A stretch of 27,545 bases of DNA from a virus. Location of the stretch: IMG/VR virus record IMGVR_UViG_3300042731_001294, positions 1 through 27,545 of that record, one strand, 5' to 3'. The notes below the pieces were generated by a model. It made no database searches, had not been told where the DNA came from, and worked only from the letters and a program-made list of their open reading frames with translations. Positions 178-20,200 of the stretch are shown one piece after another. Positions within the stretch are counted from its first letter, which is position 1. Every line of letters starts with the position of its first letter. Both the position numbers and the translations under genes were made by a program.

Positions 178-3100
178 ATGCCACAGAAGACTAACCTTAA
201 TGTAAATCCTTATTATGAGGACTTTGACGCGAATAAAAATTTCTACAAGATTTTATTCCGTCCTGGGTATTCTATTCAGAGCAGGGAACTAACACAAGTT
301 CAATCTATCTTACAAAATCAGATTGAGTCTTTTGGTAAGTATGCTTTCAAGCAAGGTGACCTAGTAGTCCCAGGTGAGGTAGGTCTTAATACTAAGTTAG
401 ATTATGTAAAGCTTTCTTCAGTATCTGAAGTTGCCATTAATGAAGGTAATGAGATTGTCTATAAGAAATATGACATTTCTCAGTTAATTGGCACCCAGTT
501 GAGAGGATTAAACTCTGGTGTTATTGGCACGGTACTAGCAACAAAACTAGCAACAGAAACTACAGCAGATACAATCTATGTAAACTATCTGACTAGTGGA
601 GATTCTAACACAGAAGTAACCTTTAGGCAAGGTGAGACATTAGAAGTTATTGATGGAGTCAACACTCCATTATTGGTCGTGGGTACTGATGGTAGTGTAC
701 TACCAACTAGCATTCAAATTACAAACCCAGATACAGGAGATGTAACTTCTATTGATAGTCCCGCTATGGGATTTGGTTCTGCTGTAAAAGTAGAAGAGGG
801 AATTTACTTTGTTAATGGATATTTTGTCCGCAACAACACTGAATTGCTTGTTATTGATGATTATTATAATGAACCATCCGCAAAGGTTGGTTTTTCTATC
901 AAAGAAGATATTGTAACTCCAGAAGAAGACGATAGTCTTTATGATAATTCAATTGGTTCTTCAAACTATACTGCACCAGGAGCACATAGACTTAAGATCT
1001 CTCTTTCTCTGGTAAAGTTTGAATTAGATGAATCTACAGATAAAAACTTTATTCAGTTAATTACTACTCTTAGAGGATCTGTACAAAGAAAAGTAAGTCC
1101 TACAAATTACAGTTTAATTGAGCAAACTCTTGCAAGAAGAACTTATGATGAGAGTGGTGATTATGTTGTAGATAATTTCAGTGTAGACATCAGAGAGTAT
1201 GTCCAGAAAGAAGGAAACCGTGGTGTTTATGCAAAAGATGATTTTGGTCTCTTTAATAATCTAACCGAACAAGAAGCTTCCAGAAAGATGGTTGCTAGTG
1301 TTGGTCCTGGTAAAGCATATATCAGGGGTTATGAAATTGTCAATAAAGAAACAAAATACTTAGATATTAATAAAGCTAGAGCAAGTCTAAGCAGTGACAA
1401 TATTAGATTAAAAGCAAAATCACTACCAACTTATAACATCACAAACGTATATGGTAGTGTTCCTTTAAACAAAGAAGGTGCAGATCTAACTCCATATCCA
1501 TACGTCAATTTATATTCAACATATAATGATGGTTCTGTTGGATTAGCAAATACAGAATTGCCATCAGATCATAGACAAACTCTAAACAGACGAGGGCAGT
1601 ATTTTGATAGCAATTCGGCAATTAAAACTATTACACTTGAAGTAACTAGTACAACTAATCCTCTTGCTAATTTAACAGATACAAATTTCCAAAGTTTACT
1701 GGGAACTTTGTATTTTGTAAAAACCAGGAATGATTCTGGAGCTGCTACCTCCACAGGAAGTGTAAAAGCTTTGTCTTACGCGAAGGTAAATAAACCACTT
1801 CTAAATGCTAACGATAGTGTAAAATTCTTAGAACTTACTATTGCTGGCAATAAGGATGATATTGAACTCACTATGCTTGAGTATGACTTAGGTGATTCAA
1901 ATTACCAAAGAAAATTATTCTTGACAGAAGCAGAAGCAGCTGTTGATTCTATTAATTCATATGGTTATATTGTAGATTATTCTCCTACTATCACACCAGT
2001 TATTGGTAGAGCAAAACCAAGTAATTTCTTCCTTAAGGAGAGAGGCACAGGATTTAATCAGGATACTGATATTATTCTCTCTAAAGGTCGTTTACCTGTA
2101 GGAACAGAAGTCTATAATACTACTTTTGGTCTATCTTATTTTGATCCAGAATTCTTTACTAAAATTCTTCTAGATTCAACTCCAGCAGATGGTAGTTTTG
2201 GTATTGGTAAATATGTCTTTGGTTTAAAGAGTGGTGCATATGGTGTAGTCGAAGGAGCACCTTCTGGTGTTTACTCTGTTGGAAGACTTCTTTTTGTTAA
2301 AACTCTATCAGGTAGATTTGTCTCTGGTGAAACTATTAGAGATGAAGACTCCAATACGTCTAAGATTTCTACTGATAATACTATTTCTCACTTTGTTGTT
2401 CAAGACAGAGGTCTTGGATATGCTGATGGATCTAACATATTAATCAACGGTGTAGAAATCGATGCTGGTGTTGTAGAATTGAAGAGACTAGTTAATGGAG
2501 CTTTTTATGCAGCAATCATTAACAATAGATCAGCACTCTCAACAGAATATTCTCAACCTCCTGCTATTAGTATTGTTCAACCAGATGGTGCAGCAAATCC
2601 AACCCAGTCTGCTTCTATCTTACCAGTTCTAGTTAGAAATGCTGTTACAACTTATGTTCCTCAGAATGTTAAGTCTGTAGCATCAGCATTTGGTTCTGGA
2701 AACGCTAATGTTTTCACAGCAGATGTTGTTACTGATGACGAAAAATATGCAGAGATTAAAGCTGTAACTGAGTTCACGTTCTTTGGAACAAAAGGTTTTA
2801 ACTTTATCGAATCTACAAGTTTTAATGCTGATGCTAGCAACGATGTGCAGCAAGGTGATATTGTTCAGTTTGCTGATGTAGATAACAATATTGTTCGTGC
2901 TGTCGTACAATATGCAACTCAAAAGCAAGGATCTCAAAAGTCACGAGTATATCTAGACTCTGTACTACCAGGAGATGTTGTTAATACAAGTATTGTACGT
3001 TTACGTCCAAGAGTAGATAATGCAAACCAAGGAACTTTAATTTATCCATCTGGAAGTAGACAAATTAAAAAGATTGTTGATACCCCAGAAGATACAAAGA

Positions 3101-6100
3101 TCAACTACTTCTTCCGTAGAGATTTTATCACTACTGCTTCTAGTGGTGGTGGTATCATTACATTTGCTGCACAACTAGACTTTGGTACACAAAGGTTTGT
3201 TGCATTCACTGAAGAAAATTACATGATCACAGTCTTGGATCCTGGTGACGCTCCAAATATTTCTGCAGGTGATCTTGTATATGTTGATGCAGATAATGTA
3301 GAAATTACTTCTGCAACAGATACTGCTAGTGGTCTTGCTTCTGGTAGTATTAGTTTAAGACTTCCTAGCACTTACTTCGGAACCATTCCAACAAATGGAA
3401 CATATCCAAAACTAAAACTTACGGCAACATTAGAAGTTACTAACGCAAAACCAAGACTAAAAACTTCTATCGAGAATAAGAGAATTGTTATCTCATCTTC
3501 TGGTGATAGTGTCATTCCATTCAGAGGAACTGACTATGATTCGGAAATTGTAGAAGTTCTCTCTTATTCCGATGCGTATAAACTGAGATATGTTTATGAG
3601 GGAAGTGCTACTCAACCTCCAACTATTGATTCTGCTGGTAATCTAGTTTCTGGAACAGACGTTACTGATAGATTTACATTTGATAATGGTCAAAGAGATA
3701 CTGTATATGATATTTCTAGAATTGTCATCAAACCAGGACAAGAAAAGACAACTGGTCAATTAGTTATTGGTTTTGATTATTTTGAGCAATCTCAAGGTGA
3801 TTTCTGTACTGTTGACAGTTATGTTCATGAAGCAGGTGTAACAGAGGAAGAAATCCCATCATTCAACTCAACTGTACATGGTATTGTAAATCTTAAGAAC
3901 GTTATTGACTTTAGACCAAAAGTAGATTCTAATACTACTATCAGTGGTTTCCAAGATGAAGCATCTCTGTCAGTAACAGTTGGTAATTTCTCTGGACCAG
4001 GAGCAGTTCTTGCTTCTACTCCTGCACCTGATGCAGGACTAGAGTACACACTATCATTCAGTCAAGTTCAATACTTAGATAGAATTGATGGTATTTTCCT
4101 CAACAAAAAAGGAAACTTTATTGTCAAAGAAGGCAACTCTTCACTTAATCCTTCCAAACCAGATCCTGTTGATGATGCTATCCCACTATTCTATGCATAC
4201 ATTCCTGCATACACACAAACTAGTAAGGATGTAAGAATTACAACTATCGATAATCGTCGCTATACTATGCGCGACATCGGTAAATTAGAGAAGCGTATTG
4301 AACGTCTCGAATATTATACCACCCTTAGTGTTCTAGAGCAACAAGCTCTTAACATGCAGGTCAAAGATGAAATTGGTTTTGATAGATTCAAGTCTGGATT
4401 CCTGGTAGATAACTTTGAGTCTCATAGAACAGGTAATCTATCTTCTCTTGATTATCAGTGTGCTATTGATTCTCAGCAGTCAGTATTGCGTCCACAATCA
4501 AAAGAAAATTCTTTTGTACTAAAAGAAGTGAATACTAGAGACGACCAAAGAGTTGTCTCTGGTTATAAGAAGTCTGGAGATATTGTTACCTTACCATATA
4601 CTCACCTAAGTCTTCTTGGAAATAGTTTTGCATCTAAGACACTAAATCCAAATCCATTTGTTGTTTTACAATATGTTGGAGATAGTATTCTTTCTCCATC
4701 TATTGATCAGTGGTATGATGAGTCTAAAGAACCATTAGTTGTAGATACTAACACAGATCTGTATAAAATTTTCTTAGCAAAAGAAAATATCAAGCAAAGT
4801 CTTTCTAGTCTTTATAACTCTTTTGTAGTCAACTGGGTTGGATCTACACCATCATTTACAGCAATTAATTCTTTAGGTAAAATTAATAGTCAAGATGCAC
4901 AAGCGAGTGTAGAAGCTGCTGGAGTTTCCAGTTCCACTAATATTAGTCCACAAAATAATGATGTTGCTAAAGGTGTAAAGACAAACACTATTAGAGGAAA
5001 CAACGTATCTGCTGCCCTGCAGTTCTTCGCTAGAAGTGTTCCTATTAAGTATGTTGTGAAGAGAATGAAACCCAATACGACGTTATCTGTCTTCTTAGAA
5101 GGTAGAAATATTAATCGTTGGGTAAATCCAGACCTTAGATTCAGTGGTATTGCTGGCAATTCATTATCAGCATTTAACGGAACTATTACTACCGACAAAA
5201 ACGGTAATGCTAGTGGTCTAATCTTACTACCAGCTGGTGCTCCACCAAGAGAAAACACAACTTGGACTGGAGACGTAGATACTGTTGATTACGACAATCT
5301 TGCTGAAGAAATTAATATTTCTACAGGCATCAAGACATTTAGATTTACTTCTAGTTCTACAAATGCGGACAAAGCAAACGTAGATACTTACGCCGAAGTT
5401 AAGTATTATGCAACTGGTATTCTTCCAGAAAATCCTGGCACAATTGTTTCAACAAAACCATCCTTCTTTAAAGCAAATGAAGGTGTTCAGTTTGTAGACA
5501 GCAATACTGACAATCCAGTAAGACCTAATCCACTTGCACAAACTTTCAAAGTTGAAAACTATGAGGGTGGTGTGTTTGCTACTGGTGTAGATCTTTTCTT
5601 CAATAAGAAGAGCAATACCATTCCAATTAAGGTATATCTGTCAAATGTAGATTCTGAAAAACCAGCAAAGAATATTGTTCCTGGAACAGAAAAAGTCATT
5701 ATGCCATATACTTTCCTGAAGTTCTTTACTAATGGAAATGTATACGTAACTATTGGAGAAAGTGCTACTGGATCTTCTTCTGCTGCTAGTGGTCCTATCG
5801 AGAGAGTAATTGATAAGAACGGTGTAGATCTTGTTCCTTCATCTTCTGGTAAGTTCTTGCTTACAAATGAGCAAGTGTATACTCTTGTATTGAGTAATCA
5901 TAATGGTCGCTCTTTCTTACCAAATGAAACTTTGATTGTTCCATCTGTTACTTTAGCAAACAATACAGAGGGAACCAACTCTGTATTAACAATTGCAAAA
6001 GATAGTGGTAAAGTTTCAGCAATCAATATTAAGGACACTGGATTAAACTATGATAATGCTATTATTACAATCGAAAGTCCTCAATTGCCAGGTGGATCTG

Positions 6101-8301
6101 TCGCTACCGCAAGAGTAGAAGTTTCTGGTGGAAAAGTATATAATGCAGAGATTTCTCTCCCTGGTTTCGGTTATACCGAAGCACCATCAGTAGTCATCAG
6201 AGGTATCGGTAATGGCGCTGGTGGATGTGTATTAGAAACTCAGATAGAGATTGATACCCCTGCTGTTAGAATGGGTGTAGCGACCGATTACGTGGGAGTT
6301 ACAGACTCTACTGTTCCTACTTATTTTGAGTTTGATCATCCTGTATATCTACAGAATGATACTGAGTATGCACTAACGGTAGAAACCGATTCTGTTGATT
6401 ATGAGATGTGGGCGTCTAGATTAGGCGAGACTGATATTGCAACTAGCACAGTTATCACAACACAACCTTCTCTTGGTTCTGTTTACAGATCTCAAAATAC
6501 AGAGAACTGGACAGAGGATAATTTTGAAGATATCAAGTTTACACTATATCGTGCAGAATTTGATATTAGAAAAGATGCAGAACTTCTTCTCACTAATGAA
6601 TCTTTAGGATATGAACTTCTAGAGAAAAATCCATTTAGAACTGACGCAACAGCAAATACAAATGCAACTTCTAAGTTGTTTGGTAACAATAACAAAATTA
6701 TTAATGTATCTCATAGAGATAATGGTTTTGAAGACACAGGAAATTCCTATGTGTTCTATAGAACAGCATTAGAGACAGGTGGTATCACATCAGATACTTT
6801 AAATTCTACACTGTTCCAAGTTACTAACGGTGGTATTGATGGATACAATATTACCTCACCAATTTCATCTTCTGGTAATGCTTTAGGTGGAGGAGAAACT
6901 GTATATGCTTCATACAATAGAAAGTATGAAATTCTATATCCACAAGTACAGTATCTAACTTTTAGCGATACTAAGATTGAAACTTCGGTGAAGACTACCA
7001 ATATTGTACCAGTAGATTCTACTACCAGTACATATTCTTCATATTCTCAAGCAGAGTATGAAAAAACTTTCCTCAACGAACCACATTATTTCACTAATCA
7101 AAAGGTAATTACATCCGAGATTAATGAAATTCTAAATGACATGAACAACTCCTTAACTTATAAGTTAAAGTTGAGTTCTTCTACATCATACCTATCACCA
7201 GTTGTTGATCTGTCTACTATTAGTGTCAAAACTTCTAGTAATAGAATTGATCATCCAACTGGTCAGGAAAATCGTTACGGAAGAAGAGATCAGATTATTG
7301 AATTCTATCCTCTCTATAAGTTTGCAATTTCTAACTTAATTAACGTACAAATTCAAAATGATCAAAGTGTAGAAGGTTACACTTCTAAAGCAACAGGTCG
7401 TATTGCTAAAGTTGTAGGTAGTGAGGTCTGGGTAAGATTAACTTCGACGCAGTTCTTTAAGAGAGGTGAGAGAATCACATTAGGTTCTCAATTAGATTTG
7501 GTCGAAACCGTAAATAATGAAGAAGTTCCAAGAGCAAAAATTGATACAAATCCTACTCAATTATTCTTGGATATTCCAGATGCTTCAACTATCGAAGCAA
7601 GAAATCCATCCGTAATTGTTGAAACTTATACTAACATTATTACAGGTAAAGCAGTTATCTGGAATAATAAAACACAAGAGTTGACATTAAGAACAGATAC
7701 TCAACCTATTGCTGATGATTTCACTGGAAGAATTATTGACAACACTCTGTTTAACAGAAATGCTGTTGTGAATGATCAAATTGATGATATCTTTAGAGTA
7801 GGTGATTTTGTTAAGTATGCTACTCAAAATGACGAGGATGCTCTCTTCTTAGAGATTGCAAGAATTAGATATGCCGATGGTATTAATTTTGTTGGGGAAG
7901 ACACTTCTAAAAATAGTTCTTCTCTTGCAAAGTATATTACCAAAGAAGTTTCTATCAACAACCCAGGAACTGCTATTGATGTTCACTTAACGATGAACGT
8001 CAAGAATATTTCTGATGTTGAGGTATTGTATAAGTTCAAGAAAGCTTCTACTGCTGAAAACTTTGAAGATATCGATTGGATCTACTTTAATGGTAATGGA
8101 TATCCAGATACTGCGGAAGTTGCATCACCAGAAAATACTATTTCATCAGTGATTGAAAAGCAATCTTCATATCAAGATATCACATATAGCGCAGCAAATC
8201 TCCCTGAATTCTCATCATTTGCTATTAAAATTGTTATGAAGGGAACCGATCCAGCATTCGTTCCTAAAATTCAGGATATCCGAGCAGTAGCAGCATTCTA
8301 A
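178..8301 (+). CDS. Giant virion structural protein with N-terminal DUF4815-type domain
   Basis: The product is 2707 residues, probably a baseplate or tail-periphery protein. The N-terminus (residues 12-65) has the DUF4815 signature as I know it: YYEDFD, then KNFYKILFRPG (R28-P29-G30) and a RELTQ stretch leading to a Q-rich helix. Most of the rest is beta-rich and Gly/Thr/Ser-rich. Residues 1364-1410 break this with a charged helical, coiled-coil-like block starting MRDIGKLEKRIERLEYY, conserved in this family. Residues 1948-2016 hold two GxGY-type modules (FGYTEAPSVVI). The C-terminus looks like a compact beta domain ending RAVAAF. The start is supported by GGCGGA (167-172) five bases upstream and a late promoter 37 bases upstream. 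Its position after a probable baseplate gene suggests it fills a gp7- or gp10-like place, but that is inference. No enzymatic motif was seen. Confidence 0.85.
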   Translation: MPQKTNLNVNPYYEDFDANKNFYKILFRPGYSIQSRELTQVQSILQNQIESFGKYAFKQGDLVVPGEVGLNTKLDYVKLSSVSEVAINEGNEIVYKKYDISQLIGTQLRGLNSGVIGTVLATKLATETTADTIYVNYLTSGDSNTEVTFRQGETLEVIDGVNTPLLVVGTDGSVLPTSIQITNPDTGDVTSIDSPAMGFGSAVKVEEGIYFVNGYFVRNNTELLVIDDYYNEPSAKVGFSIKEDIVTPEEDDSLYDNSIGSSNYTAPGAHRLKISLSLVKFELDESTDKNFIQLITTLRGSVQRKVSPTNYSLIEQTLARRTYDESGDYVVDNFSVDIREYVQKEGNRGVYAKDDFGLFNNLTEQEASRKMVASVGPGKAYIRGYEIVNKETKYLDINKARASLSSDNIRLKAKSLPTYNITNVYGSVPLNKEGADLTPYPYVNLYSTYNDGSVGLANTELPSDHRQTLNRRGQYFDSNSAIKTITLEVTSTTNPLANLTDTNFQSLLGTLYFVKTRNDSGAATSTGSVKALSYAKVNKPLLNANDSVKFLELTIAGNKDDIELTMLEYDLGDSNYQRKLFLTEAEAAVDSINSYGYIVDYSPTITPVIGRAKPSNFFLKERGTGFNQDTDIILSKGRLPVGTEVYNTTFGLSYFDPEFFTKILLDSTPADGSFGIGKYVFGLKSGAYGVVEGAPSGVYSVGRLLFVKTLSGRFVSGETIRDEDSNTSKISTDNTISHFVVQDRGLGYADGSNILINGVEIDAGVVELKRLVNGAFYAAIINNRSALSTEYSQPPAISIVQPDGAANPTQSASILPVLVRNAVTTYVPQNVKSVASAFGSGNANVFTADVVTDDEKYAEIKAVTEFTFFGTKGFNFIESTSFNADASNDVQQGDIVQFADVDNNIVRAVVQYATQKQGSQKSRVYLDSVLPGDVVNTSIVRLRPRVDNANQGTLIYPSGSRQIKKIVDTPEDTKINYFFRRDFITTASSGGGIITFAAQLDFGTQRFVAFTEENYMITVLDPGDAPNISAGDLVYVDADNVEITSATDTASGLASGSISLRLPSTYFGTIPTNGTYPKLKLTATLEVTNAKPRLKTSIENKRIVISSSGDSVIPFRGTDYDSEIVEVLSYSDAYKLRYVYEGSATQPPTIDSAGNLVSGTDVTDRFTFDNGQRDTVYDISRIVIKPGQEKTTGQLVIGFDYFEQSQGDFCTVDSYVHEAGVTEEEIPSFNSTVHGIVNLKNVIDFRPKVDSNTTISGFQDEASLSVTVGNFSGPGAVLASTPAPDAGLEYTLSFSQVQYLDRIDGIFLNKKGNFIVKEGNSSLNPSKPDPVDDAIPLFYAYIPAYTQTSKDVRITTIDNRRYTMRDIGKLEKRIERLEYYTTLSVLEQQALNMQVKDEIGFDRFKSGFLVDNFESHRTGNLSSLDYQCAIDSQQSVLRPQSKENSFVLKEVNTRDDQRVVSGYKKSGDIVTLPYTHLSLLGNSFASKTLNPNPFVVLQYVGDSILSPSIDQWYDESKEPLVVDTNTDLYKIFLAKENIKQSLSSLYNSFVVNWVGSTPSFTAINSLGKINSQDAQASVEAAGVSSSTNISPQNNDVAKGVKTNTIRGNNVSAALQFFARSVPIKYVVKRMKPNTTLSVFLEGRNINRWVNPDLRFSGIAGNSLSAFNGTITTDKNGNASGLILLPAGAPPRENTTWTGDVDTVDYDNLAEEINISTGIKTFRFTSSSTNADKANVDTYAEVKYYATGILPENPGTIVSTKPSFFKANEGVQFVDSNTDNPVRPNPLAQTFKVENYEGGVFATGVDLFFNKKSNTIPIKVYLSNVDSEKPAKNIVPGTEKVIMPYTFLKFFTNGNVYVTIGESATGSSSAASGPIERVIDKNGVDLVPSSSGKFLLTNEQVYTLVLSNHNGRSFLPNETLIVPSVTLANNTEGTNSVLTIAKDSGKVSAINIKDTGLNYDNAIITIESPQLPGGSVATARVEVSGGKVYNAEISLPGFGYTEAPSVVIRGIGNGAGGCVLETQIEIDTPAVRMGVATDYVGVTDSTVPTYFEFDHPVYLQNDTEYALTVETDSVDYEMWASRLGETDIATSTVITTQPSLGSVYRSQNTENWTEDNFEDIKFTLYRAEFDIRKDAELLLTNESLGYELLEKNPFRTDATANTNATSKLFGNNNKIINVSHRDNGFEDTGNSYVFYRTALETGGITSDTLNSTLFQVTNGGIDGYNITSPISSSGNALGGGETVYASYNRKYEILYPQVQYLTFSDTKIETSVKTTNIVPVDSTTSTYSSYSQAEYEKTFLNEPHYFTNQKVITSEINEILNDMNNSLTYKLKLSSSTSYLSPVVDLSTISVKTSSNRIDHPTGQENRYGRRDQIIEFYPLYKFAISNLINVQIQNDQSVEGYTSKATGRIAKVVGSEVWVRLTSTQFFKRGERITLGSQLDLVETVNNEEVPRAKIDTNPTQLFLDIPDASTIEARNPSVIVETYTNIITGKAVIWNNKTQELTLRTDTQPIADDFTGRIIDNTLFNRNAVVNDQIDDIFRVGDFVKYATQNDEDALFLEIARIRYADGINFVGEDTSKNSSSLAKYITKEVSINNPGTAIDVHLTMNVKNISDVEVLYKFKKASTAENFEDIDWIYFNGNGYPDTAEVASPENTISSVIEKQSSYQDITYSAANLPEFSSFAIKIVMKGTDPAFVPKIQDIRAVAAF

Positions 8302-8310
8302 TTTCCGCGT

Positions 8311-8517
8311 ATGGGTTATATTAAAGTTGAAGGGCACGATGGTCTTGTCAGAGACGAGACCACAGGTGCTATCTTGAATCACAGCGATTCTGCCATAGAG
8401 GCAAGACGTAAACAAAGACAACTGAGTTCCGCGTTGGACGACATAAATATGTTGAAGGATGAAATCTCTGAAATCAAAACCCTACTACGAGAGTTAGTCA
8501 AAAATGCCAGCAGTTAA
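8311..8517 (+). CDS. Small coiled-coil phage protein, function unknown
   Basis: This 68-residue protein begins MGYIKVEGHDGLVRDETTGA, an opening I associate with a small family conserved in marine T4-like phages. Residues about 38-65 form an amphipathic, heptad-like helix rich in Leu, Asp, Glu and Lys (DDINMLKDEISEIKTLL), so it probably oligomerises through a coiled coil. It starts nine bases after the first giant gene and overlaps the next gene by 14 bases, which points to co-translation with two structural proteins. No clear Shine-Dalgarno sequence precedes the ATG. It may be a minor virion component or an assembly factor; neither is shown. Confidence 0.8.
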   Translation: MGYIKVEGHDGLVRDETTGAILNHSDSAIEARRKQRQLSSALDDINMLKDEISEIKTLLRELVKNASS

Positions 8518-11500
8518 CGTCGCACGCACGGATACCTTTGAACAACAGAGGGTCAAAATTAATGAGATTGGTGCAGCAATTTTTAACGTCACTGCAGGTG
8601 GCAGTGACCTTTCTACAGGTATTTTAAAACTAGGTGATGGAACTAGATTTATTCCATCCCTAGCTTTTACATCAGACTCAGAGCTAGGTTTATACAAACC
8701 AAGACAAGATACTATCGGGTTTGTTGCTAATACAAAGAAGTTATTCGATATCTCTGATATCAGTCTAAAAGGATACAAAGATTTTATTCTTGAGAAGAAT
8801 GTTCTTATCACTACTGGAATTACAGTAAGTAATTCTGGTTCTGGATATGATGAGGGAACATATACTGATGTTCCGTTTATTGGTGGTACTGGTGACGGTG
8901 GTACTGCAGAGATTGATGTTGTTGGTTTTGATGGCACTATCTTAAATATTGGTGCTAATTATACTCAAGGACAATATACAGGTATTCCATTAATTGGTGG
9001 TAATGGAAATGGTGCTACTTGCGAATTTGTAATTCCAGAACTAGAGGGTGGCATTACAGATGCTGGTTCTGGATATCCAATTGGTAACTATAGTAGCGTC
9101 CCAACAACCACTAATGGTTCTGGTTCAAACGCAACCCTGAATATTACCGTATCGGGTACTACTAATATTGCTGGTAATGTTGCCAATAGTGGTAGTGGTT
9201 ATACTCAAGGATTATATGCTCAGATTGATGTATATAACGTTGCTACACAGACATATGTTGTTGCTGCTGTCGCGAATCCTGGTGCTCCACCACCAAACGA
9301 AATTTATACATTAAATGGTACAAACAAACCTGTACTGACTCTTGAGATTGGAAATACATATAGATTTGATCTTTCAGATACAGGTCTATCTACTCATCCA
9401 TTTTACTTCCATGGCGCAAGTGTATTAGATGCTCTCCCAGATACTTTTACTGTAGTACCATTCGGTATTGCTGGTCAAGCAGGAGCATTTGTTGATCTTG
9501 TTATCCATGACACTGCAGCACCACAAACGATTGGATATGATTGTGCTGCTCACGCTGGAATGGGTAACAGTATCAGTGTTGTTTCTGGTACTCCAGCAAG
9601 TTCTGGTAGAGGATCTACTGCTAATGTTACTGTAGATTCTAATGGTAATGTGACAGATGTAACATTTACTCAAGTTGGTGAAGGTTACTCTGCAGGAGAT
9701 ACTTTAAGATTTGTCGATGCTCAGATTGGAGGAGGTTCTGGAGCAACGTATGCAGTTACAGGAGTAACTTATAATAGTACAGTTACTGCTGCTACAGTTG
9801 CATCTGCAGGACAAGATTACTCGGCAAACGACACTCTTGGTATTGACAATACTTTCTTTGGTGGTCTTGGTTCTGGATTTGAATTTACAGTAACATCGAA
9901 TCCTGGAAAAGTTACAGAATTTGATGTTTCTGCATATGGATCTGGATATCAAGTAGGAGATTTGCTGGCATTACCAACTGGAGTCAGTGGGTTGTCTACC
10001 GTTCTTGGCGGAACAATTACTGGCGTCAATACAACACTGATTTCTGGCAGCGCACAGATTACAGTTGCCGATACATCAATTCTGCAAGTTGGAATGAATG
10101 TTTTCAACGGTGTTGGAGATGTTGGATTTGTTGCACAGGGTGCTGTTATTAAATCTATCGATAGTGCTACAACACTAACGATGTCATTAGGTATTGGTGG
10201 TCCTGACGCTCCTCCAGATGTTCCTGGTGCTGCTTCCCTAACATTTACTTCACCAAACCCAACCCAGATTGTTTTAACATCCGTTGCAGGTATTGCTATT
10301 GGAGATGTTGTGCAGCAAACTGGAGGTACAGGTGTTCTTGCTGCTGATACAACTGTTTCATCTATTGACGAACCAAACTTAACAGTTGTATTAAACAACG
10401 CTCCAACAACTCCTGGTTCAGCAACCTTATCGTTTCTCCCATCATTTGGTATTGGTACTACTGCATTCTCTTATAGAGTTGATGTATTAGGTGCTGTAAA
10501 ACAAGTACAAGTTATTAATGGTGGTAATGGATATTCAGCTACAGATGTTCTTACAGTATCCCCAACAGATCTCGTACAACCTATTACCAAAACTGCAAAG
10601 TGGTATGGAATTCAAACCCTAACTTTACAGGGAACAGTATCTTCTTCCGCAATTAGTGTAGGAGATAGTATTAAGAAAAGAGATGGTGCTGTCGTTCAGG
10701 TAACATTAACAACTGGCACTTCAGTTCTAGCTGCTGCAGATCAAACATACAATAATGTTGCTGCTACTGGAGGATCTGGCAGTGGACTGACAGTACAAGT
10801 TATTCGTGGTGGAGATGGTTCCCCTAGTGTTATTGTTGATGGTGCTGGTTTTGATTATGTCCAAGGAGAATCTGTAACGGTTGCTGGTAACCTAGTTGGT
10901 GGCGCTACTCCTGCTGACGACATCATTCTAGAAATTAGTAGTATTACCACATTCGATACTCATGATGTTGTAGGTGTAAATTCTGCTGGTGGTAACATCG
11001 TTTCTCTTGCTGTCGCAAACCTATCCCAAGGACTTGATACTGATTTCCTTGGAGCGGACGGTATTGTCGCAGGTGGTAATACATACACTGTTTTTACAGC
11101 ATCTACAACCGCAACTGATTATAGAATCTTTATTGACGATGTATTTACACCAGATCTAACCCTTTATGTTGGATCTACATACTCATTTGATCTTACTGGA
11201 CAAGGCAATCCAAACCACACATTTGCATTATCTGCATTTGAGGGAGGAAATAAAGCACCATCATTCTACGATGGATATAGTGTAACTCTCGATGATACTA
11301 CTGCAGTTGTTTCTGTATCTAGCACAACTAATTTGGCAGTAGGGATGCTAGTCACTGCTAGTGGTGATGGAACTATCACTACAGGGACAAAAATTCTATC
11401 AGTTGATAGTTTGACTCAAATCACACTAGATCAAGTACCATCTGGTTCTGGTAATGCGCTATTAACATTCACTGGTTCCGAATATACTGATGGTGTTGTT

Positions 11501-13654
11501 AGAGAAGCTACTTCATTAAAAATTAAAATCACGGATAGCACTCCCAATCTATACTATTATGATGAGGGTGCTCTTGGACTTACTTCTGGTTTCAATTTTG
11601 ACACAGCAGCAGTATTAACAGTAAGTGCCAATAACCCCAAAACATTTGGTAGTGGACTACAAATTACTGTTGATGAAGTAGAGAGCAGTGATATTATTAA
11701 GAGTGATGTAGACACTGGTGATGTTTCAGCTGAAACATTTACTGCTACTACTAACATTACAACTTTAGATGCTACTGTAACTCAGACACTAACAGCTCCA
11801 GATATTGATGGAACTGCTATTACTGCAGAAACTATCGATAGTGCTTCTTCTTTAACAGTAACCACAGCATCATCATTCTATATCTCATCAAATATTGATG
11901 TTTTTGATCCTAACACACAGTTATCAACTCTATCAATTACTCTAGCAGATGGCAATCTGTCTACCCAAGGACAACTAAAAACACTTAGTGACCTTAATGT
12001 TAATGATCAAATCCAGATTGAAACTAACGAAATTCGTAGTTTAGGAAGTAATGATCTTTTACTTGTTCCTTCTCCTGGAAGAATTGCTAACTTTAATACA
12101 GATAGTGCTCTACAAATTCCTGTTGGTGATACTAATGCTAGACCACCATCAAACCAATTGTCAGATGGTCAAATTAGATTTAACACTGACACACAACAGT
12201 ATGAAGGATATAATGCAACGAACTCTGCATGGTCATCTCTTGGTGGCGTAAGAGATTTAGATGGCAATACTTATATCAAGGCAGAAGCTTCTGTTGGTGC
12301 AAATGATAATACTCTATGGTTTATTAATGATGGTATTAATACACTCAAGGTAACTAATGAATACCTAGAGTTTGTAAATTGCAAGAAGATTTCTTCTTCC
12401 AATACTACTGCTCCTGTATATACAGAATGGAATGCTAACACACCTGTAACTCTAGGTCAATATCTCAAATATAAGAACAATTTGTTTGAGGTAACCACTG
12501 CTGGTTCAACTGCACCATCTGGTTCTGAACCAACTGATACTTCTGGAAATGCATTTGTAAACGGAACTTGCGAACTTACTTTCTGGGGTCTTGCAGTAAG
12601 TACATTAACATTTGAAGAAATCTCTGAGGTAAGAGTAGCACCTCTTGGTGGAACACCATTAGTTGTTAATGGTGAATTGAGATTTGCTGATAACATTATT
12701 TCTACAGATGTAAATGATTTGCTAATCAGACCAAACTCTGGCAAAAAAGTTACAATTGATACAAACACATCGCTAACAATTCCTGTTGGCGCTGATGGTG
12801 ATAGAGGAGCAGCAATTCAGGGTGCAATTAGATTTAATACTACCTCCACACAGTTTGAAGGATATGATGGAACTAACTGGGGATCTCTTGGTGGAGTTAA
12901 AGACGTTGATCAAAATACTTATATTATTCCTGAATCTGCACCTGGAGCAAACGAGAATACATTATTCTTCTACAACGACAACGTAAAAACTTTAGAAGTA
13001 ACACCAATCTCCCTAGACTTCTATGGTATTGATACCATTAGATCTATGACCAGTAACGAGTTTGAAGTTACTGCTTCTCTGGTTACATGGGATAATGCTA
13101 CTAGCACTCTAGACAATACTTCTGCTACAACTACATTCTTACATACAACAAAACAGTATTTTGACTTAGGTCTTTCTGCTGGACTAGTTGTTGATCCTGT
13201 ATTGAGATTAGATAATCAAGGAGATGTTTATCTTAATATTGGTTTTGGATCAGGAACATTTGATGGTGTTAAAATCTTTGATGGTGATCTTAAAGAATTT
13301 GAACTTGCTGATACCAAGATTCTATCAGAAAGAATTACCCTAACAAAAGGCACTGTTAATAATGGAAGTAGTGATCTTTATGATATTGCTCTAGCAGTTG
13401 GATGTAAAACAACTGTTACTTGTTATGATGTGACCACTGGTGAGAAAGAGTTTATTGAATTTGGTATCACTGATGATGGTACAGATGTATTCCATAGCGA
13501 GTATGGCAATCTGAGAACAGATTATCAATTGATCATTCCAACCTTTGAATTGACTGGATCAAATGTGGTCAGACTAAATATTGAAATAGGAGCTGCAGTG
13601 CCTACAACACATCAGGTCATCACTACTATCGTCTCAAACGTCACTAAGAAATAA
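8504..13654 (+). CDS. Modular fibre-like virion protein with two cupredoxin-like domains
   Basis: The product is 1716 residues. A short N-terminal segment (1-100) begins MPAVNVARTDTFEQQRVKIN. Then come GSGY-type beta modules (about 105-240), a cupredoxin domain (about 265-360) with candidate ligands H298, C347, H350 and M353, and more GxGYxxGDxL modules (about 388-505). Two copies of a VGM/SID-type beta repeat follow (about 514-648), then a second cupredoxin-like domain (about 878-1030) with a third copy of that repeat inserted. Near the C-terminus are two copies of a domain containing IRFNT, an EGY motif and SLGGV (1182-1298 and 1404-1514), followed by a beta-sandwich-like end. The architecture fits a tail-fibre or baseplate-attached fibre protein. 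The start overlaps the previous gene by 14 bases. Role in host contact is inferred; the module boundaries are read by eye. Confidence 0.85.
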   Translation: MPAVNVARTDTFEQQRVKINEIGAAIFNVTAGGSDLSTGILKLGDGTRFIPSLAFTSDSELGLYKPRQDTIGFVANTKKLFDISDISLKGYKDFILEKNVLITTGITVSNSGSGYDEGTYTDVPFIGGTGDGGTAEIDVVGFDGTILNIGANYTQGQYTGIPLIGGNGNGATCEFVIPELEGGITDAGSGYPIGNYSSVPTTTNGSGSNATLNITVSGTTNIAGNVANSGSGYTQGLYAQIDVYNVATQTYVVAAVANPGAPPPNEIYTLNGTNKPVLTLEIGNTYRFDLSDTGLSTHPFYFHGASVLDALPDTFTVVPFGIAGQAGAFVDLVIHDTAAPQTIGYDCAAHAGMGNSISVVSGTPASSGRGSTANVTVDSNGNVTDVTFTQVGEGYSAGDTLRFVDAQIGGGSGATYAVTGVTYNSTVTAATVASAGQDYSANDTLGIDNTFFGGLGSGFEFTVTSNPGKVTEFDVSAYGSGYQVGDLLALPTGVSGLSTVLGGTITGVNTTLISGSAQITVADTSILQVGMNVFNGVGDVGFVAQGAVIKSIDSATTLTMSLGIGGPDAPPDVPGAASLTFTSPNPTQIVLTSVAGIAIGDVVQQTGGTGVLAADTTVSSIDEPNLTVVLNNAPTTPGSATLSFLPSFGIGTTAFSYRVDVLGAVKQVQVINGGNGYSATDVLTVSPTDLVQPITKTAKWYGIQTLTLQGTVSSSAISVGDSIKKRDGAVVQVTLTTGTSVLAAADQTYNNVAATGGSGSGLTVQVIRGGDGSPSVIVDGAGFDYVQGESVTVAGNLVGGATPADDIILEISSITTFDTHDVVGVNSAGGNIVSLAVANLSQGLDTDFLGADGIVAGGNTYTVFTASTTATDYRIFIDDVFTPDLTLYVGSTYSFDLTGQGNPNHTFALSAFEGGNKAPSFYDGYSVTLDDTTAVVSVSSTTNLAVGMLVTASGDGTITTGTKILSVDSLTQITLDQVPSGSGNALLTFTGSEYTDGVVREATSLKIKITDSTPNLYYYDEGALGLTSGFNFDTAAVLTVSANNPKTFGSGLQITVDEVESSDIIKSDVDTGDVSAETFTATTNITTLDATVTQTLTAPDIDGTAITAETIDSASSLTVTTASSFYISSNIDVFDPNTQLSTLSITLADGNLSTQGQLKTLSDLNVNDQIQIETNEIRSLGSNDLLLVPSPGRIANFNTDSALQIPVGDTNARPPSNQLSDGQIRFNTDTQQYEGYNATNSAWSSLGGVRDLDGNTYIKAEASVGANDNTLWFINDGINTLKVTNEYLEFVNCKKISSSNTTAPVYTEWNANTPVTLGQYLKYKNNLFEVTTAGSTAPSGSEPTDTSGNAFVNGTCELTFWGLAVSTLTFEEISEVRVAPLGGTPLVVNGELRFADNIISTDVNDLLIRPNSGKKVTIDTNTSLTIPVGADGDRGAAIQGAIRFNTTSTQFEGYDGTNWGSLGGVKDVDQNTYIIPESAPGANENTLFFYNDNVKTLEVTPISLDFYGIDTIRSMTSNEFEVTASLVTWDNATSTLDNTSATTTFLHTTKQYFDLGLSAGLVVDPVLRLDNQGDVYLNIGFGSGTFDGVKIFDGDLKEFELADTKILSERITLTKGTVNNGSSDLYDIALAVGCKTTVTCYDVTTGEKEFIEFGITDDGTDVFHSEYGNLRTDYQLIIPTFELTGSNVVRLNIEIGAAVPTTHQVITTIVSNVTKK
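8824..9238 (+). repeat. Array of GSGY-type beta modules in the 1716-residue protein
   Basis: Four successive protein-level units are seen: NSGSGYDEGTYTDVP, GANYTQGQYTGIP, DAGSGYPIGNYSSVP and NSGSGYTQGLYAQI. Each has a Gly-rich turn, a Tyr and a short strand, separated by Gly/Asn-rich linkers such as IGGTGDGG and IGGNGNGA. This kind of repeat is common in phage fibre and baseplate proteins and probably forms stacked short strands. Confidence 0.75.
9296..9580 (+). other. Cupredoxin domain with complete type 1 copper ligand pattern
   Basis: This region encodes residues about 265-360 of the 1716-residue protein. It starts with strand-like YTLNGTNKPVLTLEIG and GNTYRFDLSD, continues with THPFYFHG (H298; also H303) and ends with YDCAAHAGMGN (C347, H350, M353). 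One upstream His plus a C-x2-H-x2-M loop is the ligand set of type 1 copper proteins; amicyanin has the same loop spacing. There is no signal peptide, and the domain lies between GSGY-type modules, so it is part of a structural protein and not a free electron carrier. Confidence 0.7.
10046..10444 (+). repeat. Two tandem VGM/SID-type beta repeats in the 1716-residue protein
   Basis: Two adjacent units share one pattern: a strand, a L-x-VGM or I-x-IGD turn, a Gly-rich loop, VIKSID or TVSSID, a hydrophobic strand and a closing ASLTF or ATLSF. The first covers residues about 514-583 and the second about 583-648. A third copy lies at 11303-11480, inside the second cupredoxin-like domain. Confidence 0.7.
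11130..11590 (+). other. Degenerate cupredoxin-like domain interrupted by a beta repeat
   Basis: Residues about 878-1030 repeat the cupredoxin outline: DVFTPDLTLYVGSTYSFDLT, then NPNHTFAL with H905. The closing loop reads YYDEGALGL, where the copper loop of the first domain reads YDCAAHAGM. Aligned without gaps, Cys becomes D1020, His becomes A1023 and Met becomes L1026. Between the halves (about 934-993) sits a VGM/SID-type repeat (LAVGMLVTASG, KILSVD, ALLTF). The fold is probably kept and copper binding lost. Confidence 0.6.
12047..13045 (+). repeat. Duplicated IRFNT/SLGGV domain near the C-terminus of the 1716-residue protein
   Basis: Copy 1 (12047-12398) and copy 2 (12713-13045) share NDLL, IPVG, IRFNT, a QYEGY or QFEGY motif, SLGGV followed by D, NTYI, GANDNTL or GANENTL, and a closing hydrophobic strand. 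They are separated by a unique segment that includes WNANTPVTLGQYLKYKNN. The domain type is familiar from phage fibre proteins. Duplication is clear at protein level; DNA identity is patchy, so it is not recent. Confidence 0.75.
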
Positions 13655-13656
13655 AT

Positions 13657-14157
13657 ATGGCAACTACAAAAGAAAAGTTTGATTCAACTGGTGGATATTC
13701 TGTCGATAAAACAGTTGTACTTGATGAACTCAGAAATGCAAAAGACCTTAATAGTCTAGAACTTAAAAACTCTGAATTTACTGATAGTAAAGTATCTCAT
13801 TTTATTTTAAGAGGGGTCAATACTGCAGTATTAGAATTAGATAATGTAGGAACGCAAATTACTATTGACAATAATACTTTGAATTTTGTTACTGGACATG
13901 TTGTTGGAGTAAATCCACAAGGAACAGTATATTCTGCAAAATTAGAGTCAGTATTATTCTGTGATAATGTTGGCGCGGTGTCTGTTCTCTCTACTATGAG
14001 AACCGTTATCAAAGATGATATTCCTACAGGACAGTCTTGGTCAATTGACCCATTAGGAGCGACTAACCGTTTTAGTTACACTACTACAAGAGCAGGAACA
14101 ACTAACACAATCAAGTGGGTTGTCTCCACTCAAGTTATTAGTATTGCATGGGCTTGA
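13657..14157 (+). CDS. Beta-rich virion-associated protein, function unknown
   Basis: This 166-residue protein has a short polar N-terminus (MATTKEKFDSTGGYSVDKT), then mostly alternating strand-like segments, ending IKWVVSTQVISIAWA. No signal peptide, membrane segment or catalytic motif is visible. Its C-terminal half resembles in style the beta-sandwich ends of phage fibre proteins, including the end of the gene just before it. It starts two bases after the stop of the 1716-residue gene, so it is almost certainly translated from the same message. A small fibre-tip, collar or attachment protein is plausible but not shown. No strong Shine-Dalgarno sequence is visible, which suggests translational coupling. 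Confidence 0.75.
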   Translation: MATTKEKFDSTGGYSVDKTVVLDELRNAKDLNSLELKNSEFTDSKVSHFILRGVNTAVLELDNVGTQITIDNNTLNFVTGHVVGVNPQGTVYSAKLESVLFCDNVGAVSVLSTMRTVIKDDIPTGQSWSIDPLGATNRFSYTTTRAGTTNTIKWVVSTQVISIAWA

Positions 14158-14201: not shown

Positions 14202-17200
14202 ATGAGTTTTAATATCAATTCTGATAAAGAGTTTGTAAGGGGTTCAAAACCCCAACTTATCGGTGATAATGAACTTACCATTAGGGGTGGTACAGGATCT
14301 CTCGAAAGAGAAGTCCTAAGAACACAACTTGATGCTGATACGGGTTTGCCTCGTGTTGGTATTAACAGAACGGGTAATCGTGTTAACAATATCGAACTAA
14401 CTAATGACGGTGTTGGATATGTTAACCCACCAACAGTTACTATCGATCCACCAGGAACTCCAGGTGGTGTTCAAGCTCTAGCATCTGCATTTATTTTTAA
14501 TGGCAGAGTTACCAGTATTGCAATTAATAATCCTGGTAGTGGATACACAACTGCTCCCACAGTTACTTTTACAGGTGGTGGTGGCGCTGGTGCAGCTGCT
14601 ACTGCTGTCCTTGATACTGTTGACTTTGAACTTGATATCAACGGTGCTATTAGAACTTCCACGTCTATCATTTCTGACACGGCGAGAGTTTTAAACCTTG
14701 ATATTGATAACTTTGTTACTCCTGACCTAAACTTAAGAGGTCCAAATCTTAAGACATATATGAATGGTTCGGGTACATTATACCCGACTGAAGCAGATAT
14801 TTTCCAAAAAGACGAGTACGTATACTTTGGTACTAATGTCTATCAAGCACTAAACCAGGGTGAAGCAACAGCAGTACCTCCAACACATACTGATGGCGTT
14901 GTCAGGAATGGAGAAGTTGACTTTAAGCACATCGGTTTCCGTGCTGATGATCCTACAGAATTCCGTTACGGAGACACAGGAGAAGCAGGTGTCTTCCCTC
15001 GTTCAATTACTCCACTACTTGGCGATAGATCTGATGCTATTGCTACCACAGAATACGTCCTCAACCTAGCAACGAATGACGTTGGTGGTCGTATCTATGT
15101 TTCTGAACAAATTGGTTCTGACTTGAACGATGGTCGTTCAGCAGTTAACCCTGTTCGTACAATTAAAAAAGCGGCACAGTTAGCTTGGGCAACTCCTGGT
15201 GTAAAAGAGACACTTATTGTCTCTGGTGGAGACTATCTAGAAGATAACCCAATCTCTCTACCACCAGATTGTTCAGTTGTTGGTGATAACCTACGTCTAG
15301 TAATTATCAGACCTAGGAATCCTGGCAAACATATTATGAAATTCGGTGACAAAAACTATGTCATCGGTGTAACATATAGAGACCAGATTGATGCAAATGG
15401 AGATTCCGTTGCAACATGGGACTTTGCTATGGTCTTCGATGACAAGCAACGTGTCATCCTTGACTATGAAGTTAATGGAGACTTTGGAGTTGAGTTCCCA
15501 ATTGGTCACCAAATCTTTGGTCCTGATCAGTTTAGATTAGGATTCCAGCAGAATGGTGGTGGATCAGCATTACAAGTAGGTAGTCAAGTTGTTGGTGTTA
15601 ACCAGGGTGCTGTTGCAGAAGTTATTGGTGTCGCATTTGATTCTACAACAGGTGCTAGCGCATATCTTAATGGTAGTGTAGATGTCAGAGCGACCAGTGG
15701 TTCTATTGTAGAAGGTGAACAATTTAGATATATTACTAACATTTCTACAGATGCATCACTTGCACTTACAATTACAGAGACTACTGGTGCAAACTCTTTC
15801 AGAACTACATCTGATCCGACAGGAATAATCTCACCTGGAGATTACATTTATCTAGATGATACTGATGATTCTAGTTTTACTCAAGGATATTTCCAAGTAT
15901 TCCAGATTGATCCAGAGCAAGGACCTCCTACAACGTATTGGGATGTTACAGTAATTCCTGTTTTTGGATCGACTGGATGGGATTCTGCAGTATCAGAGAC
16001 AATCAATATTAATGCGGCAACTGCTACATTCTTCACGTTTGACTCAATCTCTCTAAAATCAATTAGAGCAGAAGGTGAGGTTGTTAGTGTAGATGAAGAT
16101 GTTACTAACACATTACCAATTCAAAGACTAGACTTCTCTCTACAGGGAACATTTACAGAGGGATTCCAGAGTGATCAGTTCGGTAATGCAGAAGACCTTG
16201 GTGGTATTGTATTCTATACCAACGAACTAGTTGGTAGAAGTAATATCCATGAATTTAAAGAAGGTCAAGAAATTACTATTACTGGATTGCCAACAACAAA
16301 TCCAGACCTGTCTTTCCTCAACGGCAAGCAGAGAATTTACAAAGTTCTAGAAGATGCTGATGGTAGAGCAAGAAGATTTGTAATTCCAAAGAAAGCGCCA
16401 GGAATTAATGATGCAAACTTTGATCCAGGACAGTTTGCTACAGTTGCCACATATTCTAGAAGTGTAACACTATCTTTACTTAACTCTCCAAACAAATTCC
16501 CAATTTCTACACCTGTAGAAAGAAGATTCCAAGATGCTTGTGTATTCCTTCGCAACAATAGAGACTTTATCGCAGATGAAGTTGTAGGAATTATTAATGA
16601 TGAATTTAAGAGAGACTACTATTCTGTATATAATGTAACTGGTAATGATTTTGACATTTATCTAGGTCCACTAGATCACGTCAATAACTACATTAGTGGA
16701 GGTACTGTAACATTTGGTGGTAACGTTTATAACATTACATCTTTTGTTTATGATACAGGAAATACTGGTGTTGCTACTGTAACAACATCTACAGCAATTC
16801 CTAGTTTAGCAGAAGATGATACGGTTCAATTAGCAGGACTTCTTATTGAATGTGAAGCTGGTCAGAAAGTATATCCAGCATATAGTTCTCCAGACAGCAC
16901 TGGAAATAATGGTGATAATCAGTGCCGTCAAGACGTTGTTCACTTTATCAACGCTCTCGTCAGAGACCTTGAGTTTGGATCAAACCACAACGTAATTGAA
17001 GCAGCGCAGAAGTATATCGTTGATGGTAAAGTTACTTACATCGAAGATGAAATTATTCAAAATGTAAGAGCGATTGAATATGCTAGAGAGCTAGCAATTT
17101 ACTGTATGAGAAATTGGAGGATTGGTAATGGAACTCCATCTGATACAATCTATGCTCCTAGATATTCTAGTATCACTAGATATTTTGACAATAGCGTAAT

Positions 17201-20200
17201 TACTTCTACTGCTGGAGATCCTGCTTGTGCAGATGTCAAGGCAGCAATTGATACTCTATCATTCCTCTGGGTAGATGTTATCACAAATAATACTAATGGT
17301 ACGTATCTAGATGCTGCATATTTAATTGCTAGAAACAGAGATCTTATTGCAGATCAAGCACTTATCAATACTGAAGTACAATATCCTGCACTAAATCTTA
17401 GCGATATTCATCAGAGAAAGTGTCGTCGTGATATCAATATCGTTCTAGGTGGTCTAATTAGAGACTTAGCTATTGGTGGCAACCACGGTATTGTAAGTAA
17501 TGCAGAAGCATATTTCACTGGTGCTGCACTAACTGGTATCGATGCAGCTCAGTTACCTGCAACTCTCTACGCATATGAACAGGTTCGTGATCTTTGTATT
17601 CATGCGATGCGTAATTGGACCGATGGTCTGAATGATTACGTTACCCCAGTTGGTGCTGTATACAACGCTGCTTCAGGAGAACTGAATTTTACATATCCTG
17701 TCGGTTCTGGTGGGGTTCCTCAAGTTGGCGATAGAGTTGCATTCACAGAAGAAGCTATGACCTTTAGCTGTACTGTGAATAATGTACAAGGAAATCATCC
17801 AAGTCCTCTTAGATTTGATTCTAACTATGGTAATAGTTATCCAATTACTGCAGTTTCTGGAACATCATTTGTTCAAGTAACAGTTAACGTTGGTGATGCT
17901 GGTAGTGCTTCTGGTGAGCAACATACCTTCGTTAGTGCTGCAACTAATGGAACTGTTATTATCCATAATCCAGTATCAACAACATCTCCAATCCCACAGT
18001 TTGATGATTGGAATGTTTTAACAGACCCTGCTGCTGGTGCAGATTGTGCAACTGTAGAGGCAAGTATCACAACTGCATTTAGCACCTTTGAAGATATTTT
18101 AGATGGAACTTCTGCTCCTGGTGCAATTACCCAAACTTTTGGAACTTTATATGATACTGCTTCTATCATCACATATCCAGATAGTTTTGTTACTGATCTG
18201 AATAATCGCCGTATGGCAATTCGTGGTGATTATGATGATTACCCAATTATTGAAGCATCACCATACACCCAGAACTCTTCTGTTATCTCCTTCCTTGGTG
18301 GTAGTGGTGCTCTAGTTGATGGTTCTAAAGTTAAACAACCTAACTGTCCTTTCCCTGGTCTAGAACTAGACGGATCAGCATCCTTCCCTAATCAGGGTAA
18401 GTCGATGGTTGCATCCGCATTCACCATCGTCTCCTTTGGTGGTACAGGATATAAGGTTATCGAAGATGGTTACACTCAGTTAGTTTCGGTCTTCGTTATC
18501 TTCTGTGCTGACGGTGTACTTGCTGAGTCTGGTGGTTACTGTTCTATCACCAACTCTGCTACTAACTTCGGTATCTACGCTCTCCGTGGTATTGGATTTA
18601 GAAGAGAGGCGTATTCGTTTGACGTTGGTACTATTTCTAATGTATCTGCTACACCAACTGGTAGAGCAATTCTAACAGTCGATGGTTTAGGTAGAGAACC
18701 ACTGGAGCATTATGTTGTAAAAATTGACGGTATCAGCAATACAAATCCTGATATTGAATACTTCATCGATGCTGTTGGCGCAGTTGGTGCTGGTCCACCG
18801 TTCTCTGCACAGTTGACAATTGACGATGGTCAAGGTCAACCTATGAGTCTTACTGATGATGCAACTGGAAATCCAATTTCTACAGGTGCATTACTTGGTA
18901 AGACTATCAGATTACATAGACCATCTATCGTCAACTCCTCTTCGCACACCTGGGAATTTGCAGGTTCAGGTACTAACTACCTAGCACTACCAGAAAACGG
19001 TGGTACTAAAGTTCTCGCTAATGAGCAAGTATCTCAAGATTATGGTCGTGTTTATTGTTCTGGTACTGACGAACTTGGCGACTTCAAGGTTGGTACATTT
19101 GCACAAATCGAAAACAGAACTGGTGCTATTACCTTCACAGGTACGGTTACTATCTCTGAAGTTGAATTCTTGAAACTGAAGGGTGGCGACGTTGTTGTTA
19201 CAGGTTTCTCTGCTGATAATACTCTTGGTGGTGCTGGAACTAGTAACTCTGTTCTACCTACTCAAAAGGCAGTTAGAGATTACATCACTAACAACCTCGG
19301 TCCATACATCAACAAACCATACTCCACGAACGCTGTTCCTAGAGCACTGGTTGAACTTACTGACTCTGGTAAGATTTCAATTGACCAGATCCCAGCACTA
19401 AGACCATTTGAAGTCTACACTGTTGCAAATCAAGCAGAGCGACTTGCTATTGAGGGCGCACTTGCTGGTGACATCGCGATTCAATCTGATACTACAACAT
19501 CATTCATTCTAAACAACGATTTAGATAGTCTATTTACTGCGTTTGTTCCTGACCCAACAGTACAATTTACTATTGGTGATATCTTCACTGGTAGTGGAAC
19601 TGGTGGTCGTATTCAGGCAACAGAATATAGACAGGGTGTTGTCTATCAGTTGAACATCACAAACGGTGGTAGTGGTTATACTCAACCACCTACAGTTACA
19701 ATCTCTGGTACTCTACAGCAAGGTGGTGTAGAAGCAAGAGCAGAAACCACTATCGCTAATGGTGAAGTTGTAACACTAACTCTAGTTCTTTATGATGGAT
19801 TCTTAGGTGGTAAAGGATATACTTCTGCTCCTACAGTTACAATTGCTGCACCTGCAGGATCTGGTACACAAGCAACTGCTAGTGCTCTGATTGAGAGTAG
19901 ACTCTATGGATCTGTTGTAAACAGAATCCTTATTGAAGATACCGATACTATTGAGTCTAGTGACATCCCTGCTGTTACTATGAATATTACTAGAGTTGTA
20001 AATACATCATCTAGTAATAACAATAACTGGGTATCTCTATCTTCTAACCAGATTGCTGCATCTGATATCACATCTGGTGTTATTGAGACTGACAGACTTG
20101 CATCAGGTGGTGCTGCAAACTCCTTCACATTCTTACGTGGAGACCAGAACTTTGCACTTGCAGTTCAATCTGTTAAAGGTGCTGAAGTTAGATACTTCGA

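Follow-up and report, generated by a model that had tools for sequence, protein, structure and literature searches.

The stretch of DNA analysed here (the window; 27,545 bases, the entire IMG/VR virus record) codes for a 1716-residue virion structural protein with an internal domain whose sequence is best read as that of a cupredoxin-family module of the virion fibre, one that would be kept for metal binding, most likely of copper, in a structural or adhesion role. The domain covers approximately residues 267 to 360 (positions 9302..9583, + strand), has all its predicted ligands intact, and is matched by the family profile over residues 267-359 at E 2.7e-32.

The window is occupied by a head-to-tail series of structural genes such as T4-like cyanophages have, with several further gene families of unknown function alongside them. 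The protein that carries the domain (8504..13654, + strand) matches PHROG 6005 over residues 1-1716 with 1848 bits, and both this full-length profile match and the gene order shared with its relatives make it a member of that family. Its nearest full-length relatives are virion structural proteins of Kyanoviridae, which are 42-50% identical and stand in the same gene order; S-CAM4, ACG-2014j, S-H9-1 and Syn1 are among the relatives. The upstream neighbour in the structural cluster is a DUF4815 protein of 2707 aa (178..8301, + strand; PF16075, E 4.7e-48; PHROG 358). Downstream follow a virion structural protein of 166 aa (13657..14157, + strand; PHROG 5449, E 6.7e-75) and a tail fibre protein of 3026 aa (14202..23282, + strand), the first 933 aa of which match PHROG 5342, tail fiber protein. 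The claim of the initial annotation that the domain is embedded in a large virion structural protein is borne out by the full-length PHROG 6005 match and by the run of structural genes. GSGY/GSGF modules are repeated on both sides of the domain, around residues 112, 188, 230, 456 and 479 of the 1716-residue protein.

The type 1 ligand set of His, Cys, His and Met is complete in the domain of the window. When ORF 8504-13654 was read directly, the four residues were found where they had first been placed. The predicted first His ligand, H298, lies in an HPF motif (9395..9397), the predicted thiolate ligand is C347 (9542..9544), the predicted second His ligand is H350 (9551..9553), and the predicted axial ligand is M353 (9560..9562), all on the + strand. 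The Cx2Hx2M spacing is likewise correct; the loop reads YDCAAHAGM, which is the spacing of amicyanin. Two residues before the Cys stands an aromatic residue, Y345 (9536..9538, + strand), and this YxC arrangement is as in plastocyanin and amicyanin. The ligand pattern is not there by chance, because 20,000 shuffles of the 1716-residue protein yielded no YxCxxHxxM at all. No CxxHxxM was found elsewhere in the main predicted proteins of the window.

Conservation was assessed on 276 near-full-length domains from four scans of viral contigs and from annotated phage records, which clustering at 70% identity reduced to 66. Among these 66 domains, less than 70% identical to one another, the aromatic residue at Y345 is present in 100%, C347 in 98.5%, and H298, H350 and M353 in 97% each. 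The full type 1 ligand set with an amicyanin-like loop, as described in the initial annotation, is therefore conserved at 97% or above for each ligand, and very few other columns of the domain equal the ligands in conservation. The 35-domain group found by ligand-free search patterns retains the Cys in 97% and the other ligands in 94%. The invariant columns in an alignment of 27 divergent relatives are T285, Y286, F288, H298, Y345, C347, H350 and M353, and relatives at 30-40% identity retain every ligand. Where ligands are missing they are lost jointly, all four being absent from L247 and both His from L229. The spacing Cx2Hx2M is found in 59/66 domains, x3 in two and the plastocyanin-like x4 in one, so the loop varies in length (x2, x3, x4) with the ligands retained.

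Direct comparison of the window domain with Pfam cupredoxins and PDB copper proteins gave no significant match, and a search of the window with PF00127 (Copper-bind) gave no match, the curated cut-off not being reached. Relationship to copper proteins was found by way of other phage domains. The Pfam plastocyanin/azurin model (Copper-bind) was run on 17 phage genomes. It detected the free plastocyanin gene petE in 12 of them and also matched weakly inside longer phage ORFs, two of these matches lying above the Pfam cut-off when counted with in-frame neighbours; most of the Copper-bind places in longer structural ORFs were matched independently by the window-family profile. Nine phage domains of this embedded kind make up the bridge set A7. 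This set aligns with the window family (A5) at E 1.2e-21, and all of the sequences that it returned from the PDB (59/59) are copper proteins or cupredoxin domains, with amicyanin first (E 6e-4) and plastocyanin, rusticyanin, azurin and NirK among the others. Taken singly, one of the bridge domains reaches plastocyanin at E 5e-4. In Pfam, six of the nine bridge domains match Copper-bind and two Cupredoxin_1, and the amicyanin model TIGR02657 weakly matches four of the nine. Because this chain runs from the window family through the bridge domains to copper proteins of the PDB and Pfam, sequence profile comparison assigns the window family to the cupredoxin superfamily. The cupredoxin identity first proposed stands by this route, but not by fold search alone, in which Ig-like folds did equally well. 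Weak matches of some phage domains to PF25489, which takes its name from the plant protein At5g54830 (E 0.001-0.007), point to a possible relative in eukaryotes. Picornavirus VP1, matched by the window-family profile in the PDB at E 0.03, was judged a chance match and rejected as a relative.

AlphaFold gave a pLDDT of 43 on the single sequence and a usable model only with a 109-row alignment. With the 109 sequences the domain is predicted as an all-beta sandwich (pLDDT 96.4, pTM 0.87). According to DSSP of this model, in model numbering, H34 precedes the strand 36-39, C83 ends the strand 77-83, and H86 and M89 precede the strand 91-96. The predicted ligand topology is that of cupredoxins: a strand begins just after H298, the penultimate strand ends with C347, and the loop leading from there into the final strand holds H350 and M353. 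A Foldseek search of the model against the PDB returned nothing below E 0.001, and many antibodies were among the matches. Structural re-alignment gave Z 7.3 for alpha-dystroglycan, Z 6.6 for Ig-like domains, Z 6.8 for the cupredoxin domain of the nitrite reductase 2dv6 (rmsd 2.5, 21% identity) and Z 6.5 for rusticyanin 1rcy (rmsd 2.2, 22% identity). On this model the fold search by itself expresses no preference, Ig-like folds scoring level with cupredoxins. The tied scores, with no PDB match below E 0.001, are therefore not taken as proof of cupredoxin identity. Of the structural support anticipated in the initial annotation, the confident all-beta sandwich and the cupredoxin ligand topology were obtained, but the structural search did not separate cupredoxins from Ig-like folds. 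A fold other than a Greek-key beta barrel, or ligands that do not cluster, had been named as grounds against the cupredoxin reading; judged by topology, the predicted all-beta sandwich, with the ligands in the places of a cupredoxin, gives no such grounds. Compared with predicted viral structures, the model matches tail fibres of P-SSM2 and gp9-type connectors of S-RIM14 and S-H34.

A second, split cupredoxin-like copy is present in the same protein. Its first part, residues 876-922 (11129..11269, + strand), has a profile match at E 4.5e-11, was recovered by genome search as well, and keeps the first His (NHTF). The gap between the matched parts and the sequence itself indicate an inserted module that separates the His side from the Cys side, with approximate bounds 11270..11503 (+ strand). 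The last part, approximately residues 1001-1031 (TPNLYYYDEGALGLTSGF; approximate bounds 11504..11596, + strand), was located by eye in an alignment with C-H-M and C-H-E relatives. Over the copy as a whole (11129 to about 11596) the Cys, the second His and the Met are lost (YYYDEGALGLTSGF). Among 36 non-redundant second copies the Cys is kept in 19 and lost in 17. The axial position of the 19 Cys-keeping copies is occupied by Met in 6 and by Glu (HxxE) in 13, the latter mostly with a longer Cys-His loop. The first His is visible in all 19 of these copies (17/19 by script, which missed L223 and L200) and in 7 of the 17 that have lost the Cys. A Fisher test for linked ligand loss gave p 0.004, with kinship ignored and with L223 and L200, which visibly have the His, counted as misses. 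Among the relatives the second copy is thus in graded decay, the Met being kept, replaced by Glu, or the Cys lost. Decay of the second copy beside a strictly kept first site is as expected if the first site is selected for metal binding. The initial annotation had described the first domain, but had missed both this degenerate copy and the wide distribution of the domain.

A split second copy is also found in L259, L241, L239, L196, L244, L264, L205, L209, L001, L227, L229, L247 and L252. Two other relatives, L211 and L235, have two near-full-length copies, the second of which (residues 572-671) has the longer loop Cx6H and ends in HxxE in L211 and in HxxM in L235. In L229 and L247 the first copy (residues 267-361) lacks both His and all four ligands, respectively, and the second retains His-Cys-His-Glu.

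The predicted domain is common to many marine phage proteins and is not confined to one. By tblastn, the window type was found in 50 phage records, from phages of Synechococcus, Prochlorococcus, Pelagibacter and Methylophilales, and a shorter version in 253 records, all cyanophage or marine. Among the matches listed, the shorter version is mostly in the gp9-type baseplate wedge tail fibre connector. In the gp9-type connector of Syn19 the cupredoxin-like domain forms the C-terminal end, with H...YxCxxHxxM; the gp9 proteins of L010, L012 and L333 have the same C-terminal arrangement, on which their annotation is silent. Other carriers are gp7, the proximal long tail fibre, and tail fibres of pelagiphages and methylophages, and in a SAR11 assembly the domain is in a fibre gene that adjoins an internal virion protein gene. 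The genome scan with A4 gave no loci. That with A3 gave eight. The carriers checked include three with matches to families of phage tail fibres or tail proteins, two of the three having phage structural neighbours, and the 1798-aa ORF of L330, which had no PHROG match. No cellular source of the domain was identified among the A3 carriers checked. Pelagibacter and Methylophilales phages without petE carry the domain too. The S-SCSM1 carrier is annotated as a virion protein, and the virion proteome of this phage has been determined by mass spectrometry (PMC9602691); in a virion study of S-SM1 many hypothetical proteins of such kind were present in the particle (PMC3037559). In the open-access literature, judged in part by title and abstract, no published description of a cupredoxin, plastocyanin or blue copper protein in tail fibres, cyanophages or phages was found.

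Among known systems, amicyanin (TIGR02657) is like the phage domain in its YxCxxHxxM spacing and is the best PDB match of the bridge profile. Amicyanin is a free secreted electron carrier of methylamine dehydrogenase, whereas the phage domain is a leaderless module of a 1716-residue virion protein in a structural gene run. Plastocyanin, including phage PetE (PF00127, TIGR02656), has the superfamily and the four ligand types in common with the phage domain, and the bridge domains reach plastocyanin. Phage PetE stands alone, measures 109-131 aa, carries a leader peptide and has the spacing Cx2Hx4M; the window domain is embedded (residues 267-360) and has Cx2Hx2M in place of the PetE spacing. This difference upholds the early view that the domain is distinct from a free plastocyanin, and a direct profile comparison of the window family with phage PetE aligned 13 columns only. 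Rusticyanin and the cupredoxin domains of nitrite reductase and multicopper oxidases are among the best copper-protein structural matches (2dv6, 1rcy; 20-22% identity), and in its HPF-x-F-H-G the phage domain is similar to a motif of multicopper oxidases (6vow, E 0.14). Unlike the phage domain, these proteins are enzymes or free carriers, and their Z scores are no higher than those of Ig-like folds. The cyanophage gp9-type connector (PHROG 677) has a related C-terminal domain with H...YxCxxHxxM, but it is another carrier, its domain is more compact, and its annotation contains neither cupredoxin nor copper.

Several other explanations were weighed against a metal-binding cupredoxin that holds copper. 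The domain might be a spacer with an Ig-like or another beta-sandwich fold, its Cys, His and Met being metal-free core residues and its likeness to cupredoxins convergent, and Ig-like domains and alpha-dystroglycan do rank as high as cupredoxins in the fold search. By sequence, however, the bridge domains match copper proteins exclusively, and the ligands outrank nearly all other columns in conservation and are lost jointly; convergence is regarded as highly improbable. Free petE in 12 of the 17 sampled phages would suit a functionless relic, left by a plastocyanin gene of recent capture that became fused to a structural one. A relic would lose its ligands at random across relatives, but all of them are retained in relatives at 30-40% identity, and the idea is therefore largely refuted. 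The family profile is hardly like phage PetE, and petE-less phages of Pelagibacter and Methylophilales have the domain; almost no weight is given to a relic. A cupredoxin fold with its ligands kept could also hold a metal other than copper in the particle, e.g. zinc, in a purely structural role. In the cytoplasm, where virions assemble, zinc is more available than copper, and cupredoxin sites can bind zinc in vitro. The strictly kept Met and single Cys of the type 1 pattern are more usual in copper sites than in zinc sites, and zinc or another such metal is considered unlikely.

Two further explanations concern the use to which the metal would be put. A fibre-bound metal ion might be taken up by the host as a lure, the phage docking on the metal-uptake machinery in a copper version of the Ferrojan Horse. 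Such a role fits the location of the module, which marine phages have in their fibres and fibre connectors, and for iron the idea has been published, as cited in PMC10892097. The gp9-type positions, however, are at the fibre joint and not at the tip, a link to a receptor is absent here, and iron-uptake mutants were as susceptible as the wild type in a different phage group (PMC10892097), so that a lure seems quite unlikely. A redox site would exchange electrons with host surface or photosynthetic carriers, or would trigger a change of the fibre on contact. The ligand set is of the electron-transfer cupredoxin type, but the virion has no electron-transfer partner, the protein has no leader peptide, the site is buried in the fibre array, and several carriers infect non-photosynthetic hosts (Pelagibacter, Methylophilales); this role is judged very unlikely.

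The domain is thus probably a true cupredoxin that forms part of a T4-like marine phage's virion protein associated with the baseplate or fibre, with ligands kept for a metal, most likely copper. It is proposed that the complete type 1 ligand set has been kept because the domain binds metal, most likely copper. The reducing, copper-poor cytoplasm is an odd place for making a copper protein, and this counts against the copper reading. Since the carrier is leaderless and its assembly takes place in the cytoplasm, copper would probably be loaded after lysis or on the particle, outside that compartment. The metal may mainly lend rigidity to a small beta module, free of disulfides, at one of the joints or tips of the fibre system; alternatively, it may shape a host-contacting surface, rather than relaying electrons along a chain. 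A tentative proposal, given somewhat less than an even chance, is that type 1 copper centres are a systematic feature of baseplate and tail-fibre proteins in the particles of marine phages, T4-like cyanophages foremost; the virion itself would then be a copper protein, with the metal serving to stabilise the fibre, to contact the host or to bring about a change triggered by redox.

In cells, cupredoxins are familiar as carriers of electrons and as domains of enzymes. If true, an intact copper site under selection in tail-fibre and connector proteins of many marine phages would be a new setting for the cupredoxin fold. It would also supply a name for a domain left unnamed by database annotation in gp9 and in fibre proteins of well-studied isolates. 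With the module predicted in the tail fibres and baseplates of marine phages by the hundred, phage particles may carry copper, and this would tie seawater copper to the adsorption or stability of phages at the molecular level, in a way that can be tested.
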